Of a DNA stretch of 64,000 bases, positions 2,911-60,629 are shown one piece after another (positions within the stretch are counted from its first letter, which is position 1; every line of letters starts with the position of its first letter). The translations under genes and the position numbers were made by a program. This stretch comes from an uncultured Mucispirillum sp. (GTDB taxonomy: Bacteria; Chrysiogenota; Deferribacteres; Deferribacterales; Mucispirillaceae), in assembly GCA_944324465.1 (NCBI GenBank), contig CALUWI010000009.1, forward strand, positions 62,001 through 126,000, written 5' to 3'. The notes beneath the pieces are model-generated. The model was not told where the DNA came from. It worked only from the letters and a program-made list of their open reading frames with translations, and searched no databases.

Positions 2911-4491
2911 TTATTTTGGCAGTGATTCTGTGCCTTTTTCTATTTTTGGCTTAAATTTGCTTTTTTCCACTAATTTATAACCATCTGCATATAAAAGAAC
3001 TGGAGTTCTCACCGCATATCCGTTTACTATTTCGTCTATATTTGTAATATATTTACCTTCTTCATCTTTATTAACTATTTTATTAATATATGTAATAATA
3101 TCATAGCCTAATGCACTTTTACCGCTCATTGGAACACCATAAAAACCTTTATAGTCATTTGATATTCTGCTGTATTCTTCATTGCCTGCTAAAAATGCAG
3201 AAGTTAATATATACACTCCTTTAAAATATGAACGCTGGTCATTTGTTATATCATATTCTGGAATATAGCTTGTCATTACAAGTACATCTTGTATTGTGCT
3301 GTTTATATGCCAGTATTTTGCAATAGGTATAATATCAAGTATTTCTTTTTCGTCTGCCATAATGATAATTACATAAGGTGTTTCTTTATCTTCCTGTAAT
3401 ATATTCTGCAGCTCTACTTGATATCTGCCTGATGTTTTTACAACAAATGCTTCTTTACCTGCACTTTTAAATGTATCAGCAATTATCCTGCCATGTGTTT
3501 CATGTAAATCTGATGTAATAATTACTGCTTTTGATTTATTTTTCACTATTTTTAATTCGCCGGCAATCTCACTTAACTGCAGCCAGTCTACCCCAAGATT
3601 TGTTTTATGACCGCCTATGAATAAGTCATAGTTATTTAATCTTAAAAGCATATCTGTTTTGCTTTCTTCATCTGCTGCAAAATCTGATACAGGCTCAAGC
3701 TGGTAGTTATTGTTATATTTACCCATACCATATATCATACCTGCTGCCACATCATCAAATATATCGCCGCCTGCTAAATTTATTTTTGCATCAGGCTTAA
3801 TATTTACTTCTTCTATTTCACTGGCTTCTGATGACACAGTATCCATATTTTCTACTGCTCCACCTATACCTATTGCCTGCAGATATTCTTCATAAGTCAT
3901 ATTATCTGTCATAATAGGCAGCGGCTGTTCTTCAATATTATCTGTTGCTATTTCTTTAAATTTTTCTTTACCGTCTATTGCTATATCAAGGCAGGTATTG
4001 ATTTCATTATCATTTGTTACAAGCACACCAAGCTGATTACAGTATATCTGCATTACACGCATATATATAGGTGTCCTTCTCATTTCCCGCACATTATTTG
4101 CCATATTTATGGCTGCACCTTTCTCTCCCTCTCTAAGTAACGATTCCATTTTCCAGAGCTGGCCAAAGATAGTCATTTCTTCATCAAGGTTTTTTGAATT
4201 GTAGCTTTTATCTATAAGCAGTCTGCCATAGTTTTCATCACCATAGTAAAGATAGTATGAGCCTAAAAGAAGTGTGGCAGAATCTGCAATAAATAAATCA
4301 GGGTGGACAGTTAACTCTCTTAACTTAACAATATCTTGATTCTGAAGCTGCCTTGCTGCATAATATTCTGGATAAAAAGTTTTACTCTGCTGGCCTTTTA
4401 ATGCACAGCCGTTTAATATTATTACAGCACTAACGGCTAATAATACAGTAAGTCCGCGTAATTGGTGATTCAATCCTAATTTTTTCAACAT
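2911..4491 (-). CDS. Lipoprotein with periplasmic-binding-protein type 1 fold (LpoA/LppC-like)
   Basis: An N-terminal signal with lipobox ILNGC (Cys29) anchors this 526-residue protein in a membrane. The N-terminal third resembles a helical TPR-like region. From about residue 285 the pattern IFIGGHKT, AVIITSDLHETHGRIIADTFKSAGKE and KGVYILTSAFLAG looks like the leucine-binding type 1 fold. This two-part layout is that of LpoA, the outer-membrane activator of penicillin-binding protein PBP1A, and its neighbour is a lytic transglycosylase; a role in cell-wall growth is therefore inferred. The start overlaps the end of rsmG by 62 bases. No later Met would keep the signal peptide, so the long overlap is probably real. 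Confidence 0.65.
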   Translation of the reverse strand: MLKKLGLNHQLRGLTVLLAVSAVIILNGCALKGQQSKTFYPEYYAARQLQNQDIVKLRELTVHPDLFIADSATLLLGSYYLYYGDENYGRLLIDKSYNSKNLDEEMTIFGQLWKMESLLREGEKGAAINMANNVREMRRTPIYMRVMQIYCNQLGVLVTNDNEINTCLDIAIDGKEKFKEIATDNIEEQPLPIMTDNMTYEEYLQAIGIGGAVENMDTVSSEASEIEEVNIKPDAKINLAGGDIFDDVAAGMIYGMGKYNNNYQLEPVSDFAADEESKTDMLLRLNNYDLFIGGHKTNLGVDWLQLSEIAGELKIVKNKSKAVIITSDLHETHGRIIADTFKSAGKEAFVVKTSGRYQVELQNILQEDKETPYVIIIMADEKEILDIIPIAKYWHINSTIQDVLVMTSYIPEYDITNDQRSYFKGVYILTSAFLAGNEEYSRISNDYKGFYGVPMSGKSALGYDIITYINKIVNKDEEGKYITNIDEIVNGYAVRTPVLLYADGYKLVEKSKFKPKIEKGTESLPK

Positions 4492-47971: not shown

Positions 47972-48004
47972 TAAGTATTATTAATTAGTCAAAAGGTTGT
48001 GAAT

Positions 48005-49660
48005 GTGAAGAAAAATATTTTACTAATATCTTTGTATCTAATTACAGTATTACTTTTTAGTTCCTGTAAAAATAAGCCTGAAAAAGAGGCTGTGCAGGAA
48101 ATAAATATAGAGCCGGCAGAACAGGCGGCAGTAGAAATACCTTATGGTGATGCATTATCTACTGGAGAAATTGCAGAACCAATAAACCTGATTCCTGCCC
48201 TTGCATCAGATTCTGCAAGCCATAATGTAACTCAGTATATTTATAATGGTTTAGTAAAATATGATAAAGATTTAAATTTAGTTGGTGATTTAGCAGAACG
48301 CTGGGAAATATCTGAAGATAAAAAAGTTTTTACATTTTACCTAAAAAAAGGTGTAAAATGGCATGACGGAGTAGAATTTACAGCAGATGATGTAAAGTTT
48401 ACTTATGAGTTTATGATTTCAGATGATACACCAACTGCCTATGATGGTGATTTTAGAGCTGTAGAAAGTGTAGAGGTTATAGACAGATACACAGTAAAAG
48501 TTACTTATAAGGAAGTATTATCCCCTGCACTTGCAAGCTGGGGTATATGGATGATGCCACGCCATGCTTTAAAAGATAAACCAAGCCGCTCTCCACTGCA
48601 AAGGAAGCCAATAGGCACAGGTCCATATAAACTGGAATCCTGGAAAGCAGGACAGTCTATTACATTAACAGCCTTTCATGATTATTTTGAAGGCAGACCA
48701 AAAATAGAAAAAATATTTATAAGAGTTATTCCTAACCAGACAACTCAGTTTTTAGAGCTTTTAAACGGCTCAATAGACATTATGGGTATGACACCTAAAC
48801 AGGATGCTCTTGATACAAATACACCAAAATATACAGCAAATTATAATACATATTCTTTTCTTGATTTTTCATATACTTATGTAGGCTATAATTTTAAAAG
48901 AGCGCCATTTGATAATAAGCTTGTCCGCCGTGCATTAACTCATGCTATCAATAAGCAGAGCATAGTAGACGGGCTGCTTTATGGTAAAGGTATTGTGGCA
49001 GAAGGTCCATATAAGCCTGATTCATTCTGGTATAACCCAAATGCAAAAGGTCCAGAATATAATGTGGAAAAAGCAAAAGCACTGCTTGCAGAAGCCGGCT
49101 TTAAAGATACAGATGGTGACGGAATACTCGAATATAATGGCAAAAAGTTTCAGATAGAATTAATGACTAACTTAAATAACGATGTTCGCGGTAAAATTGC
49201 AGAGCTTGTTCAGCAAAGCTGGGCTCGTATCGGCATAGATGTGCAGATAAAAGTTTTAGAATGGGCAACAATGCTTGGAGAGCTGAATAAAAGCAACTTT
49301 CAGGCAGTTATTTTAGGCTGGTCTACTGTTTTAGACCCAGACCAGTATGATATATGGGCAACAGAGCGATGCGGTGGTAATGGTCAGAATTATATCTGCT
49401 ATAGCAATGAAGAAGTAGACAGACTTTTAATAGAGGGCAGAAAAGTTTTTGACAATGAAGAAAGAAGGCTCTATTATGACAAAGTACAGGAAATGTTAGC
49501 TGATGAGCAGCCATACACATTTTTATATTTCCCATACAGTAATATTGCTCTTAACAAGCGTTTTCAAAATGTAGAGCCTGCAAAAGCTGGTATCACATAT
49601 AACTTTATAGACTGGTATGTGCCACAGCAGTATCAGAAATACAAAGTAATGGTGGAATAA
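48005..49660 (+). CDS. Peptide ABC transporter substrate-binding lipoprotein
   Basis: Family 5 solute-binding protein (DppA/OppA type). A lipoprotein signal ends in LLFSSC; motifs such as GEIAEPINLIPALASDSASHNVTQYIYNGLVKYDKDLNLVGDLAERWEISEDKKVFTFYLKKGVKWHDGVEFTADDVKFTYE and RPIGTGPYKLESW are diagnostic. A GTG at 48005 is preferred over GTG at 47999 since AAAAGG then lies at a proper distance. No permease or ATPase genes adjoin, so it must pair with components encoded elsewhere. The next gene begins after a G11 tract. Confidence 0.88.
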   Translation: MKKNILLISLYLITVLLFSSCKNKPEKEAVQEINIEPAEQAAVEIPYGDALSTGEIAEPINLIPALASDSASHNVTQYIYNGLVKYDKDLNLVGDLAERWEISEDKKVFTFYLKKGVKWHDGVEFTADDVKFTYEFMISDDTPTAYDGDFRAVESVEVIDRYTVKVTYKEVLSPALASWGIWMMPRHALKDKPSRSPLQRKPIGTGPYKLESWKAGQSITLTAFHDYFEGRPKIEKIFIRVIPNQTTQFLELLNGSIDIMGMTPKQDALDTNTPKYTANYNTYSFLDFSYTYVGYNFKRAPFDNKLVRRALTHAINKQSIVDGLLYGKGIVAEGPYKPDSFWYNPNAKGPEYNVEKAKALLAEAGFKDTDGDGILEYNGKKFQIELMTNLNNDVRGKIAELVQQSWARIGIDVQIKVLEWATMLGELNKSNFQAVILGWSTVLDPDQYDIWATERCGGNGQNYICYSNEEVDRLLIEGRKVFDNEERRLYYDKVQEMLADEQPYTFLYFPYSNIALNKRFQNVEPAKAGITYNFIDWYVPQQYQKYKVMVE

Positions 49661-49666
49661 AGGATA

Positions 49667-49677
49667 GGGGGGGGGGG
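49667..49677. repeat. Poly-G tract, 11 G, in the leader of an RgpF-like gene
   Basis: Eleven consecutive G lie between the preceding stop codon (49658-49660) and the GTG start at 49684, six bases before it. Length changes would alter spacing in the ribosome binding region rather than reading frame. It is the longest of seven such tracts. Confidence 0.9.
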
Positions 49678-49683
49678 AATGTA

Positions 49684-50601
49684 GTGAAGCGAATTTGTCT
49701 TTTTGCAGGATATAACAGTAAAGGTATAATAGAAGATTATGCTCTTTATTATTTGCAGGAGCTTTCAAAAATATCAGATGTATATTATTTAGCAGATAAT
49801 AAAATACTGCCGGAAGAACTTGAAAAACTAACACCTTATGTAAAAGGCGCTTATGGATACAGCCATGGCAAGTATGACTTTGGCTCATGGCAGGAGTTAA
49901 TAAATAAAATCAGCTGGGAAAAGCTCGCAGAATATGATGAGCTGATACTAACAAATGACAGCGTATTTGGTCCTTTATATAATTTTCAAGAATTTATAGA
50001 AGGGATAGAAAAAGACAAAGAGTGGGACTTATGCGGGATAAATACTGCCTATGACTTCCACACATGGCATTTAAGCAGCTACTTCCTGGTTTTAAGAAAA
50101 AAAGGATTTTTATCAGATACATTTAAAGAGCATATAAGCTCTATAGAAAAAGAAGATGATGTTAAAAAGGTAATAGAAAAATATGAAATAGGGCTTTCCA
50201 AAAAAATGGTGGAAGCGGGCTTTTCTGTCAAGAATGCAGTTAAGTTTAGAAAAAATATTTATCTTTCCTGGCGTAATTTTTATCTTGCAGGTTCTCCGTT
50301 TATTAAACGGAAAATTTTTAATGATGAGCTGTTTCTAATCTGCAAAACTCTAGGATGGGAAAAGTTCCTAAAAAAATATGCAAAATATAATACATCACTT
50401 CTATATAACTATGTAAATGAATTTAAAAGCAGATTTAGAATATTCAGGCTTTTAAATAACAAAATTTTCTGGCAGTATGCATGTAAAGGGATAATTAAAA
50501 TAGTTTTTACAAAAGAAAGAAAACTTATTCGCATATTTGGCATATACCTGCTTAATGTTTATAACTATGACAATAATAAAATAAAACTGGTGGAGAGGTA
50601 G
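49684..50601 (+). CDS. RgpF-like (rhamnan synthesis F) glycan enzyme
   Basis: A 305-residue protein of the RgpF family, which takes part in rhamnose-glucose polysaccharide and other surface glycan assembly. Conserved features: MKRICLFAGYNSKG start, YDFGSWQELINKI, LILTNDSVFGPLYN and WDLCGINTAYDFHTWHLSSYFLV. The 3' part is a basic region. Only GTG at 49684 is available as start in this frame. It has a close paralogue at 59728-60629 (same MKRICLFAGY opening and motif series). The G11 tract in its leader may tune translation. Confidence 0.75.
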   Translation: MKRICLFAGYNSKGIIEDYALYYLQELSKISDVYYLADNKILPEELEKLTPYVKGAYGYSHGKYDFGSWQELINKISWEKLAEYDELILTNDSVFGPLYNFQEFIEGIEKDKEWDLCGINTAYDFHTWHLSSYFLVLRKKGFLSDTFKEHISSIEKEDDVKKVIEKYEIGLSKKMVEAGFSVKNAVKFRKNIYLSWRNFYLAGSPFIKRKIFNDELFLICKTLGWEKFLKKYAKYNTSLLYNYVNEFKSRFRIFRLLNNKIFWQYACKGIIKIVFTKERKLIRIFGIYLLNVYNYDNNKIKLVER

Positions 50602-50604
50602 AAT

Positions 50605-51021
50605 ATGGACAACTGCAGATTAATTGAGCTTACATCTCATGGAGATAACCGCGGAAGTTTAATAGCTTTAGAAAAAGAGCATAATGTCCCTTTTGATATA
50701 AAAAGAGTATTTTATATTTATGATACTAAAAGAGGAACTCCAAGGGGGCAGCATGCAAATAAAAAATCAGAGCAGATGCTTATATGTGTAAGTGGTTCCT
50801 GCAAAGTAAAAGTTGATAATGGAAAAGGTATACAGGAAATTTATGAATTAAATACACCAGAAGTGGCTCTATATACAGGTACTATGCTTTGGCGGGAAAT
50901 GTATGACTTTTCACAAGGATGCGTTTTAATGGTGATAGCAAGTGAATACTATAATCCAGAAGAATATATAAGGGACTATAAACAATTTATAACAATGATA
51001 AATGGGGGGGGGAATAATTAA
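50605..51021 (+). CDS. fdtA: FdtA/WxcM-like dTDP-sugar 3,4-ketoisomerase
   Basis: A 138-residue cupin that converts dTDP-4-keto-6-deoxyglucose to the 3-keto isomer. Patterns HGDNRGSLIALEKEHNVPFDIKRVFYIYDTKRGTPRGQHANKKSEQMLICVSGSCKVKVDNGKG match the family; the usual active-site HAH is HAN, a form I believe occurs in a subgroup. Together with the following acetyltransferase and aminotransferase this suggests dTDP-Fuc3NAc or -Qui3NAc synthesis. The last codons run through a G9 tract (51004-51012) so that residues 134-136 are Gly. Confidence 0.78.
   Translation: MDNCRLIELTSHGDNRGSLIALEKEHNVPFDIKRVFYIYDTKRGTPRGQHANKKSEQMLICVSGSCKVKVDNGKGIQEIYELNTPEVALYTGTMLWREMYDFSQGCVLMVIASEYYNPEEYIRDYKQFITMINGGGNN
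51004..51012. repeat. Poly-G tract, 9 G, at the 3' end of the ketoisomerase gene
   Basis: In the present length the frame closes with TAA directly before the next ATG. One G more would end the protein one codon earlier (GGG GAA TAA); one G fewer would run out of frame about 15-20 codons into the acetyltransferase gene. Confidence 0.85.
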
Positions 51022-51480
51022 ATGTTTATACATCCGCTTTCTGATGTTCAAAGTAAAAATATAGGGCAGGATACAAAAATATGGCAGTTTTGTGTTGTGC
51101 TTGTAAAAGCTGTAATTGGTAAAAACTGCAATATATGTGCTCATGTTCTAATAGAAAATGATGTAATTATAGGCGATAATGTTACTGTCAAAAGCGGTGT
51201 TCAGCTGTGGGACGGTATTCGTATAGAAGATAATGTTTTTATTGGTCCAAATGTAACATTCACTAATGATTTATACCCACGCTCAAAAAAATATCCAGAA
51301 AAATTCCTTCAAACAATAGTAAAAAAGGGAGCATCAATTGGAGCAAATGCAACCATTATTCCTGGTATTACTATCGGAGAAAATGCTATGATAGCAGCAG
51401 GAAGCATTGTAACAAAAGATGTGCCAGCTAATACTTTATATAAAACTAAAATAAATGTAGAGACTAGGAGTCTAATATGA
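51022..51480 (+). CDS. Left-handed beta-helix acetyltransferase (sugar N-acetyltransferase)
   Basis: A 152-residue hexapeptide-repeat acyltransferase, with repeats from about residue 17 ([67 protein letters not shown]) and a late [33 protein letters not shown]. This matches the WbbJ/FdtC type that acetylates the 3-amino of dTDP-3-amino-3,6-dideoxyhexoses. ATG follows the ketoisomerase stop codon directly and its end overlaps the aminotransferase start by four bases. Confidence 0.8.
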
Positions 51481-52556
51481 TTAAATTTTTAGATTTATAC
51501 AAAATAAATGAAAGGCACAGAAAAGAAATAGATGAAAGAATAAAAAAGGTATTAGACAGCGGCTGGTATTTACTGGGAAAAGAAAATGATGAATTTTGTA
51601 ATAATTTTGCAAAATTCTGTGGTGCAAAATATGCTGTAGGTGTAGCAAATGGACTTGATGCCTTAAAACTTGCTATTATGGCTTTAGGCTTTAAAAATGG
51701 CGATGAAATATTAGTGCCGTCAAATACATATATTGCTTCAATTTTAGCAATAAGTGAATGTGACTGTAAACCTGTTTTAGTTGAACCTGATATTAATACA
51801 TATAATATAAACCATGCTTTAATAGAAGCAAAAATTACAGATAAAACAAAAGCGGTTTTAGTGGTGCATTTATACGGTCAGGCAGTAGATATGACAAATA
51901 TTAAAGCTGTGGCTGAAAAATATAATTTAAAAATAATAGAAGATGCAGCTCAAGCACATGGAGCAAGTCATAAGGGAATAAAAACAGGAAATCTTGGTGA
52001 TATTGCAGGTTTTTCTTTTTATCCTGGTAAAAATTTAGGCTGTTTAGGTGACGGCGGTGCTGTTACTACAAATAATGAAGAACTTTATAATAAAGTAAAA
52101 GCATTAAGAAATTACGGCTCACATAAAAAATATGAAAACTTGTATATAGGTCTAAATTCCAGATTAGATGAAATACAGGCAGCAGTATTAGATGTAAAAT
52201 TAAAATATTTAAATAATGATAATGATTACAGAAGAAAAATAGCAAAATATTATATAGAAAATATAAAAAATGAAAAAATAATACTTCCAAACTACAACGA
52301 TGAACATGTTTATCATATTTTTGCAGTTAGAACAGAAAAAAGAGATGAGCTGCAAAACTATCTTAAAGAAAACGGCATAGAAACATTAATACACTATCCT
52401 ATCCCGCCACATAAACAGGTATGTTATAAAGGAATATTAGGGGACAGCTATCCAATCAGTGAAGAAATACACAGAACTATATTAAGCATGCCAATTTCTC
52501 CAGTCATAACAATGGAAGAAGCAGAAAATGTAGTCAAAGTATTAAATAATTACTAA
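51477..52556 (+). CDS. fdtB: DegT/DnrJ/EryC1 family PLP-dependent sugar aminotransferase (FdtB-like)
   Basis: A 359-residue aminotransferase. The PLP Lys lies in [44 protein letters not shown] and [20 protein letters not shown] are further family marks. In the Fdt or Qdt pathway such an enzyme aminates the 3-keto sugar made by FdtA. The stop codon shares its last base with the next ATG. Confidence 0.82.
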
Positions 52557-53611
52557 TGGTATATATAATGGAAAATAATATAAAAGTATCTGTAATAATA
52601 CCAGTGTATAATGCTGGAAAATATTTAAAGCAGTGTATAGATTCTCTAGTAATGCAGTCGCTAGCAGAAATGGAAATAATTTTTGTAAATGACTGTTCCC
52701 CATGCAGCGATGATGAAGAGCTTATTATGCAGTATATGGAAAAAGACAGTAGAATTAAATATATTAAACATGAACAGAATAAAGGCACTGCTGGTGCAAT
52801 AAATACTGGGCTTGAAAACTGCTCTGGAAAATATGTTACAATTGTTGGAAATGACGACTATCTGCTGGATAATAAATGTTATGAGTATCTTTTTGCAGAG
52901 GCAGATAAAAGTAATGCAGATGTAGCTGGCTTTGGAGCATATTCTTTTAATGACGGAAATGACAGGGATAGAGTGCAGATATATAAAAACTCATATTACA
53001 AAAAAGCACGTAAAGTTAACCCAGAACACTTTCCATCAGAAGTTACATGGAATAAACTTTTTAAAACAGACACTATCAAAAAAAATGATTTACAGTTTAA
53101 TACAAATGCAAAATATGAAGATATTGAGTTTTGGTACAGGTATGTAATCACAGTTAATCCTGTAATGGTTTATATAGATAAAAATTACTATATGTACAGA
53201 CAACGAGCAAACTCTGTAATGTCTACACCTGCAAATTATATTAAAAGATTTGATGTTTATAAAATGATATATAACTTTATAAAAGCAAATAATAAAGAAA
53301 AAGAATACAGAACAAATATAATAAAATGGTTTAATTATCCAGAACAGTATGAATATTTCACTGATGAAATAAAAGATATATACAGGCAGCATTCAATAGA
53401 GTTTATGAAAGAAATAAATGTAACAGCAGATGAAATATTTAATTTTTTAGATATGAGAGTATTTAAGCTATTTTTCAGTGATAAATTTATTACAGAAAAA
53501 TACAGTGAAGTAATTGAAAATTATAAATCAGTAAAATATAAATATATAAAAGTAAATGTGTTATTCTATAAGTTAAAAAGAGAAATTAAAAGACTGATTG
53601 GAAAATTTTGA
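52556..53611 (+). CDS. Family 2 glycosyltransferase
   Basis: A 351-residue GT-A enzyme: VSVIIPVYNAGKYLKQCIDSLVMQS, FVNDCSP, GTAGAINTGLENCSGKYVTIVGNDDYLL with the acidic metal site. The C-terminal 120 residues are basic and hydrophobic, ending in KLKREIKRLIGKF, like the GT2 at 60639 with which it shares the same layout. ATG at 52556 gives TAATG coupling; ATG at 52568 is an alternative. No poly-G tract. Confidence 0.87.
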   Translation: MVYIMENNIKVSVIIPVYNAGKYLKQCIDSLVMQSLAEMEIIFVNDCSPCSDDEELIMQYMEKDSRIKYIKHEQNKGTAGAINTGLENCSGKYVTIVGNDDYLLDNKCYEYLFAEADKSNADVAGFGAYSFNDGNDRDRVQIYKNSYYKKARKVNPEHFPSEVTWNKLFKTDTIKKNDLQFNTNAKYEDIEFWYRYVITVNPVMVYIDKNYYMYRQRANSVMSTPANYIKRFDVYKMIYNFIKANNKEKEYRTNIIKWFNYPEQYEYFTDEIKDIYRQHSIEFMKEINVTADEIFNFLDMRVFKLFFSDKFITEKYSEVIENYKSVKYKYIKVNVLFYKLKREIKRLIGKF

Positions 53612-53620
53612 GGTTAAAAT

Positions 53621-54469
53621 ATGAAAATATCAGTAATAATGCTTACATATAACCATGAAGATTACATTGAAAAGGCAGTAAAAAGTGTATGTGCACAGCA
53701 GGGTGATTTTGAGCTTGAAATCATAATAGGTGATGACTGCTCAAAAGATAATACTGCTGCAATTATAGAAAAGCTGTCAAAAGCACACAAAGAAATAAAA
53801 ATATTCAGACCAGAAAAAAATATCGGTATGCATGAAAATCTAAAAACATGCTTATCACTTGCACAAGGCGATTATATAGCGATGTGTGAGGGAGATGACT
53901 GGTATATAAGCCCTTATAAGCTGCAAATGCAGATGGAATTTTTAGAAAATCATAAAGACTGTGTAATGTGCAGCCACAGCTATATAGAATATAATCAAAA
54001 AGAAGATAAATACAGCACAGTAAATTATCAGCAGGAATATAATGGTGGGGGGGGGATATATACTTTTGAACAGTTAGTAGTAGAATATAAATGGTCTAAT
54101 TTTACTACATATATGTATAGAAAAGAATTGATAGATAAACTGCCAGAGTTTATATGGGAGCTTAATGGAGCCGATTACAGTTTTAATATGCATTGTGCAG
54201 TTTATGGCAGCCTTGGTATTATTAAAGAACCTTTAAGTGTATATAGAGCAGGCATTGGCCAGTGGTCAAGTTTATCACAAGTAAAGCAGCAGCAGGATAC
54301 ATTAGATTTTGCATATAAATCTAAAGAGCATTTTCACAAATATTATAATGGTAAGTATGATGATATATTCGATAAAAGAATTGAAAAATCCATTAAAAAT
54401 TTAAAAAGAGTTAAAGCAAAGGCATTTAAAAATAAAATAAGAAGATTTTTTAAAATAAAAGAGAAGTAA
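53621..54469 (+). CDS. Family 2 glycosyltransferase with a G9 tract
   Basis: A 282-residue GT2: MKISVIMLTYNHEDYIEKAVKSVCAQ, IIGDDCSKDNT, NIGMHENLKTCLSLAQGDYIAMCEGDDWYISPYKL with GDDWY as metal site. A G9 run at 54047-54055 encodes Gly143-145 in YNGGGGIYTFEQL, in the linker beyond the nucleotide-binding half. The present length keeps the frame open through the end, so the gene is ON. Losing or gaining one G would truncate it about halfway. Confidence 0.85.
   Translation: MKISVIMLTYNHEDYIEKAVKSVCAQQGDFELEIIIGDDCSKDNTAAIIEKLSKAHKEIKIFRPEKNIGMHENLKTCLSLAQGDYIAMCEGDDWYISPYKLQMQMEFLENHKDCVMCSHSYIEYNQKEDKYSTVNYQQEYNGGGGIYTFEQLVVEYKWSNFTTYMYRKELIDKLPEFIWELNGADYSFNMHCAVYGSLGIIKEPLSVYRAGIGQWSSLSQVKQQQDTLDFAYKSKEHFHKYYNGKYDDIFDKRIEKSIKNLKRVKAKAFKNKIRRFFKIKEK
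54047..54055. repeat. Poly-G tract, 9 G, inside a GT2 gene (frame ON)
   Basis: Nine G after AATGGT in the middle of the GT2 at 53621-54469; codons GGG GGG GGG in the open frame. It is exactly nine like most others in the locus. Confidence 0.88.
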
Positions 54470-59727: not shown

Positions 59728-60629
59728 ATGAAAAGAATATGTCTTTTTGCAGGTTATGATAAGAATAATATTATTCATGATTATGTAGTATATTACTTAA
59801 AAGAATTATCATCTGTATCAGATGTATATTATATGGCAGATAATGAAATAAGTGATGAAGAAAAAGGAAAAATATTACCTTATGTAAATGGGGGGGGGTA
59901 TACGGCTTTAACCATAAGAAATATGACTTTGGCTCATGGCAGGAATTAATCAACATTATAGGCTGGGAAAGGCTGGCAGAATATGATGAGTTAATTTTAG
60001 CAAATGATAGTGTATTTGGACCATTATATCCGATAAAAGAACTCTTTGATAAAATAGAAAAGGATAAAGAATGGGATATATGTGGAATAAATAAAGATGT
60101 TAAATATAATAATTGGCATTTAAGTAGTTATTTTTTGGTGTTTAAGAAAACAGTATTCAATACAAATATTTTTAAAACACATATTGAAAATGTATGTCCA
60201 GAAAGTAAACTTGCTGACATAGTAAATAAATATGAAGTTCCCTTTATGAAAAAGTTTTATGAAAATGGATTTATAGTCAAATGCATTTTAGAAAAAGATG
60301 TTAATATATATGATGAGTGGAGAGAAGCTCTAAAATTTGGTTCACCATTTATGAAAGTGAAGGGTATATTAAGTGATGAGATTCTTATAAAAGATTTATT
60401 ATATATACAAAAGGAATATAACTATCCTGTCAGATATATAATCCCCAAAATCAAAAAAAGATTTCTGCGAGATATTCGTAGAAAATTGTTTCAAATAAAT
60501 ATTAAAAAAGATAGAATAACTATCAGGCTTTTTGGTTTTTATATTATACGAAAAGAGCCAGAAAAAAATAAAATTACAGTATATGATTATAATAAGGAAA
60601 ACTGCCCTATAAAAATAATAAGTTATTAA
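59728..60629 (+). CDS. RgpF-like glycan gene, phase OFF at a G9 tract
   Basis: Second member of the RgpF-like pair. ATG at 59728 opens MKRICLFAGYDKNNIIHDYVVYYLKELSSVSDVYYMAD and runs into G9 at 59890-59898, after which the current frame ends at 59949. One G more (or two fewer) restores VYGFNHKKYDFGSWQELINIIGWERL and the frame then continues without stop to 60629, giving about 301 residues, matching the paralogue's 305. The gene is therefore intact except for the tract length and looks switched OFF in this molecule. It follows meaB directly (stop then ATG). Confidence 0.88.
59890..59898. repeat. Poly-G tract, 9 G, causing the OFF frame of an RgpF-like gene
   Basis: The only tract in the locus where the present length breaks the frame of its gene. 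The homologous sequence in the paralogue (GVKGAYGYSH region, 49.8 kb) has no G run, which supports the tract as an inserted or expanded element. G10 or G7 would be ON. Confidence 0.9.

Follow-up and report, generated by a model that had tools for sequence, protein, structure and literature searches.

A G11 tract before an RgpF-like gene of Mucispirillum as a putative Shine-Dalgarno element of variable length

An 11-base G tract occupies positions 49667-49677 (+ strand) of the window, the 64,000-nucleotide stretch of an uncultured Mucispirillum genome analyzed here, just upstream of a GTG-started gene with an RgpF domain. This leader element is real and probably functional. In our preferred reading, to which we give about an even chance, the run is a Shine-Dalgarno (SD) element of variable length that either originated as a coding switch or alternates with one, and its length has a shallow, graded effect on expression. 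The position of the run, its gap to the GTG, its complementarity to the 16S rRNA tail and the lack of another usual start are observed, and from these we infer its use by ribosomes. The main rival is a relic tract without a length effect.

The G11 tract and the operon that it heads

The upstream neighbor of the tract is a gene for an OppA-like extracellular solute-binding protein (47999..49660, + strand; PF00496, 4.8e-101), which takes the same place in all nine orthologous loci. Its TAA (49658-49660) is followed by six bases, the G11 tract, AATGTA, and the GTG at 49684. The leader TAA-AGGATA-G(n)-[AT]ATGTA-GTG is common to three species, with n=11 in the window, n=10 in locus L035 (genome G009), and n=7 in L084 (G002); the six-base gap between run and GTG is the same in all three. 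Two further elements on the + strand are kept in L035 and L084. One is an SD-like AAAGGA (49659-49664), with 19 bases between motif and GTG in the window. The other is an AUG-UAG start-stop (49679-49684) that overlaps the GTG and, from sequence and model, is a candidate decoy start.

G runs of this kind are far more frequent than expected. The window holds 16 overlapping G8 matches versus 0.08 expected, and none of 100 dinucleotide shuffles reached 16. The whole source genome (G000; 2.42 Mb in 31 contigs) has 78 such matches, which correspond to 35 separate G/C runs of 8-11 bases. The G11 tract is the longest of the 35, a homopolymer far beyond chance and long enough to slip, as a contingency tract should be.

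The gene behind the tract (49684..50601, + strand) encodes 305 aa. The protein matches PF05045 at 4.4e-26, with 92 bits against a gathering threshold of 25, although only residues 37-217 align, to positions 5-202 of the 503 in the profile. No NCBIfam name was found for it, and its seven closest matches among named records are all from Mucispirillum genomes. An earlier note made from the sequence had described a G11 leader tract in the ribosome-binding region of a GTG-start RgpF paralogue. Its coordinates were exact, the domain and a paralogue at 59728 were both found, and the six bases between run and GTG agree with the placement.

The RgpF-like gene is the first of six between 49684 and 54469 that overlap or are separated by 0-9 bases, all on the + strand. 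After a 3-base gap comes an FdtA/WxcM-like sugar isomerase gene with its own terminal G9 (50605..51021; PF05523, 4.5e-50), then genes for a hexapeptide acetyltransferase (51022..51480; PF00132), a DegT-family sugar aminotransferase (51477..52556; PF01041, 6e-109), and two family 2 glycosyltransferases (52556..53611 and 53621..54469; both PF00535), the second with an in-frame coding G9 at 54047. By content, the unit is a surface-sugar operon. The G11 tract heads it, right after the stop codon of the unrelated oppA-like gene.

Other runs lie in or near related genes. At the junction of the fdtA-like and acetyltransferase genes (51004-51012 in the window; L034, L035, L084, L037, L038, L040), a G9 or G10 is present in all seven loci with the pair. 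Its length decides whether the fdtA-like gene stops 3-10 bases before the next gene or 40 bases inside it, and the window run is placed like an SD for the acetyltransferase gene as well. The RgpF paralogue (59728..60629, + strand; identified by profile and sequence) is split by a coding G9 (59890-59898) that is out of frame, so that the gene is off at its present length. L056 has a G9 equally far from the start. In L060, from Ca. Gastranaerophilales of another phylum, a G12 (3976-3987) is placed immediately ahead of the conserved N-terminal part of a distantly related RgpF-like gene. A TAG formed with the first G closes the frame of that gene, and no ATG, GTG, or TTG opens it before 4238, so this copy looks off at the G12 length.

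Reading frame and predicted ribosome binding

Upstream of the tract, the frame of the RgpF-like gene stays open over 22 codons (332 aa from stop to stop for the frame as a whole), and these include no ATG, GTG, or TTG. Among the frames entering the tract, one closes at the TAA at 49658, one at a TAG at 49665, and the third joins the gene at n=11; no tract length lets any usual upstream start read into the gene. As a usual start is lacking upstream in the frame of the gene, the tract is not a frame switch in the window species, and the claim that it leaves the reading frame unaffected stands. An upstream start whose frame would connect to the gene at one tract length or another, the hallmark of a translational frame switch, is absent from the window and present in the orthologous locus L036. 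In L035 and L084 (open frames of 310 and 309 aa), a TAG formed at ATA-G closes the frame directly before the run, leaving GTG as the sole usual start.

Ribosome binding was modeled with the 16S tail of G002, GGATCACCTCCTTTCT, as a proxy from a sister species, as no 16S rRNA was found in the G000 contigs. The model scores ungapped pairing to ACCUCCUUU with stacking energies from ViennaRNA and has no standby term; folding is reported apart. For spacing and start codon it uses constants of the published RBS Calculator. With this sister-species tail, the G-run is predicted to be complementary to the 16S end within the usual distance of about 5-9 bases from the start, at a best aligned spacing of 5, and across n=7 to 15 the duplex energy stays at -8.7 to -8.8 kcal/mol. 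Pairing of the run with the 16S 3' end, as the earlier note had suggested, is likewise the best-scoring interaction in the model. Its other suggestion, that the run changes the spacing between AAAGGA and GTG, fared poorly. AAAGGA is 15-19 bases from the GTG at n=7, 10, and 11, compared to a constant 6 for the G-run, and in the model is not the best site for the GTG at any n of at least 4.

With folding excluded, the GTG at 49684 has the highest predicted rate of 40 window starts. The four tract-bearing GTGs score 197-229 in the model versus 1.0-6.3 for the five tract-less orthologues. Also without folding, the modeled GUG rate rises from 135 at n=7 to 229 at n=11. Over these lengths the AUG-UAG score climbs as well (20 at n=7, 265 at n=11), and AUG/GUG increases from 0.15 to 1.16. 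Once local folding is included, the value for the GTG becomes non-monotonic, at 6.05 (n=7), 13.1 (n=9), 18.9 (n=10), and 6.25 (n=11). In E. coli in vivo, an 18-base poly-G leader is described as much less efficient than a normal ribosome-binding site (PMC3310771), which counts against the high rank that the model gives the GTG.

If the run is an SD element, its last G bases would pair with CCUCC of the 16S tail, and the six-base gap to the GTG would be the same at any length. With the SD end thus fixed, a slipping tract would not be expected to turn the gene off. The earlier note had suggested that length may set expression in steps; the most likely effect would be shallow and graded, with modeled output varying only about 2-3-fold. 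On longer tracts ribosomes may dock further upstream and initiate on the useless AUG-UAG five bases before the GTG. Given how tightly the operon is packed, the tract may also set the level of the downstream sugar-nucleotide and glycosyltransferase genes.

The start could instead be masked by RNA structure. Eleven G, by arithmetic alone, allow four GG pairs with single-G loops, making G11 the shortest run that can form a two-layer G-quadruplex by itself and hide the start above a threshold length. The ordinary fold predicted for 49620-49740 does not stand out (z 0.27), which argues against this, and we give masking by a quadruplex hardly any credence.

Only three of the 35 runs are followed, 3-12 bases on, by a start codon with an open frame of at least 60 aa (this tract, L027, and the run at 51004), compared to 230 of 5000 random positions, so an SD run is not a general design in this genome. 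L027 (1501-1510, minus strand; G000 C8:23780) reads ATG GTA TTA A, G10, CTGTT, ATG, with an ORF of 95 aa. Here too a tract has an ATG on its upstream side and another start codon that follows it after 5 bases, much like the form of the RgpF-like locus in L036.

Orthologous loci and the origin of the tract

RgpF-like matches are present in all ten genus genomes, and nine have the orthologue behind oppA. Only matches of the other type were found in G008, the best one behind a meaB-like gene. Across the nine species the tract is in the leader in three, coding in one, and absent in five. The coding form is that of Ca. M. faecigallinarum (L036, genome G001), which reads TAA-GAA-ATG-GGG-GGG-GGT-AAT-GTT-GTG-AAA, with the aligned run in frame between the ATG and the residues conserved in all forms of the gene's start, n=9 counting the G of the ATG, and an open frame of 312 aa. 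Its ATG aligns with the ATA of the window, L035, and L084. The closest relative (L034 in G006; 93% protein identity, 311 aa from stop to stop) has no run and starts with ATG, in TAG-TTT-ATG-AAT-ACA-AAT-GAT-ATT-AAA. Four more distant species have an ATG and five or six codons without a run. A G-run just before an RTGAARMGNAT start was found at this locus alone in the ten genomes, in four of them. A scan of IMG/VR for this leader at other tract lengths returned no matches.

By its position, the window tract is homologous to the in-frame run of L036, and the ATG/ATA difference suggests that an on/off switch became a leader element, or the reverse. OppA and RgpF trees both group the window species with G006, G009, and G002, with G001 as their sister, and either the leader or the coding form may be the older one. 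If the common ancestor of the four already had the leader form, the tract has since disappeared from G006 or the leader there was exchanged for another. As L034 is 93% identical, has lost the tract or always lacked it, and uses an ATG, the leader tract is dispensable.

The ATA (49664-49666) could itself be a rare start and the tract a hidden frame switch, in frame when n is a multiple of 3. The ATA does occupy the position of the L036 ATG. AUA is hardly used as a start codon, and in the three species with ATA, n is 11, 10, and 7, all out of frame. We regard an AUA start as highly improbable.

The same homology bears on the relic alternative, in which the tract is the remnant of a former N-terminal coding switch such as L036 has, and the GTG has been the constant start since ATG became ATA, with length irrelevant. 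The alignment of the L036 ATG and in-frame run with the ATA and tract favors a relic, as do the flat modeled SD energy for n of at least 7 and the tract-less sister L034. Against it, the leader is retained in three species in which just 51% of neutral sites are invariant, and the tract is still 10-11 bases long in two of them. Of the 12 leader bases outside the run, the window, L035, and L084 agree at 11; at four-fold sites in the two flanking genes they agree at 115 of 225 (P 0.004). Neighboring sites are non-independent, and the stretch was picked for looking alike. When the seven G columns common to all three are counted too, the figure becomes 18 of 19 (P 6e-5). We prefer the first value, as slippage can keep runs pure; tract purity is weak evidence of selection. 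On balance we consider a relic somewhat unlikely, if still the strongest competitor of the SD reading.

A more specific version of the history is that a one-base change of the start codon switched the mode of control. With ATG, as in L036, the tract would be an on/off frame switch; with ATA, it would be an SD rheostat acting through competition between the GUG and the AUG-UAG decoy, whose reach would grow with tract length. The run would then serve as the SD of a former internal Val codon in the window, L035, and L084. We put this forward as a doubtful but possible account. If true, a point change at a start codon moves a contingency tract between an on/off switch and a dial. The sister species of a gut commensal provide a natural series for this locus, with n=7, 9, 10, 11, and no tract.

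Alternatives before translation and comparison with known systems

The earlier note had also raised transcriptional spacing, with the tract between -35 and -10 hexamers or setting the distance to an activator site. There is precedent in Moraxella uspA1, where G-tract length alters the mRNA level (PMC7302503), and six other tracts in the genome are of the promoter-spacer type. At G11, the best hexamer pair matches at 8 of 12 positions, the score most often obtained in 2000 random placements (10 is reached by 60 of them, 11 by 3), and a -10 at the tract would place the transcription start inside the RgpF-like gene. We consider this explanation very unlikely, and the suggestion was not borne out. 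The nearest good promoter-like site upstream, within the oppA-like gene at 49449-49477 (11 of 12), was rejected as a candidate; the same hexamers occur in two of eight loci and are degenerate in one.

The six other runs are intergenic, with 8-9 G/C between TTGACA- and TATAAT-like hexamers (L009, L023, L025, L076, L077, and L079; at G000 C1:84887, C7:70229, C7:82080, C16:9007, C16:38250, and C20:32282, respectively). One pair scores 12, four score 11, and one scores 10 of 12, with spacers of 14-19. By inspection of the translations, the next gene is lipoprotein-like at its N-terminus in five of the six. These runs are likely a family of promoter-spacer switches. In another group (L011, L069, L074, L080, and L081), tracts are similarly placed in related genes just past a lipoprotein-like N-terminus (~CSKD..G.EIIYG), some in frame and others not.

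The leader run could also be the target of a C/U-rich small RNA that binds it and represses or activates depending on length, as RepG does. The layout and the regulated function closely resemble tlpB-hp0102 of Helicobacter pylori (PMC8295292). A genome-wide search for exact complements of AAGGATAGGGG hits nothing but the site itself, which argues against such a regulator. With one mismatch, CCCCTATCCTT has 8 forward and 8 reverse matches versus 5 and 3 for the reversed control, and only the site is exact. A small-RNA target is in our view improbable, more so than a relic.

Our literature search found no paper on phase variation in Mucispirillum, and the M. schaedleri genome paper (PMC5285517) does not use 'phase', 'homopolymer', or 'slipped' in its main text. 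The search also returned no match for a site that a sister species has in an in-frame form, or for a run used as SD beside a start-stop AUG. Nor did the literature searched describe the wide range of poly-G tracts that Mucispirillum has in genes for surface glycans and lipoproteins.

Graded control by leader G-tracts is already a known kind of regulation. In H. pylori, the tlpB-hp0102 leader G-repeat is under the small RNA RepG, with graded output measured over 6-16 G (PMC8295292). Both systems have a variable leader G-run and a surface-sugar glycosyltransferase gene in the controlled operon; the graded effect measured there is proposed in Mucispirillum. Unlike the H. pylori repeat, a small-RNA target in the tlpB leader, the Mucispirillum run abuts the start and looks SD-like, and the complement search turned up no small RNA for it. 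The uspA1 tract of Moraxella catarrhalis is also a poly-G upstream of the ORF with expression graded by n, changing mRNA levels up to 21-fold (PMC7302503). That gene encodes an adhesin and the effect is on mRNA, whereas the hexamer test found no promoter around the Mucispirillum tract. In Mycobacterium tuberculosis, an indel in the G7 of the espR 5'UTR changes translation and not mRNA (PMC11898584). It too is a leader G-tract, but lies 144 bases upstream and acts via 5'UTR folding, compared to 6 bases upstream and no strong fold here. Helicobacter canadensis has poly-G coding contingency, promoter, and C-terminal tracts (PMC2823697). The other window tracts and the L036 form of this tract are like these kinds, whereas the tract of the window species lies outside the coding frame.
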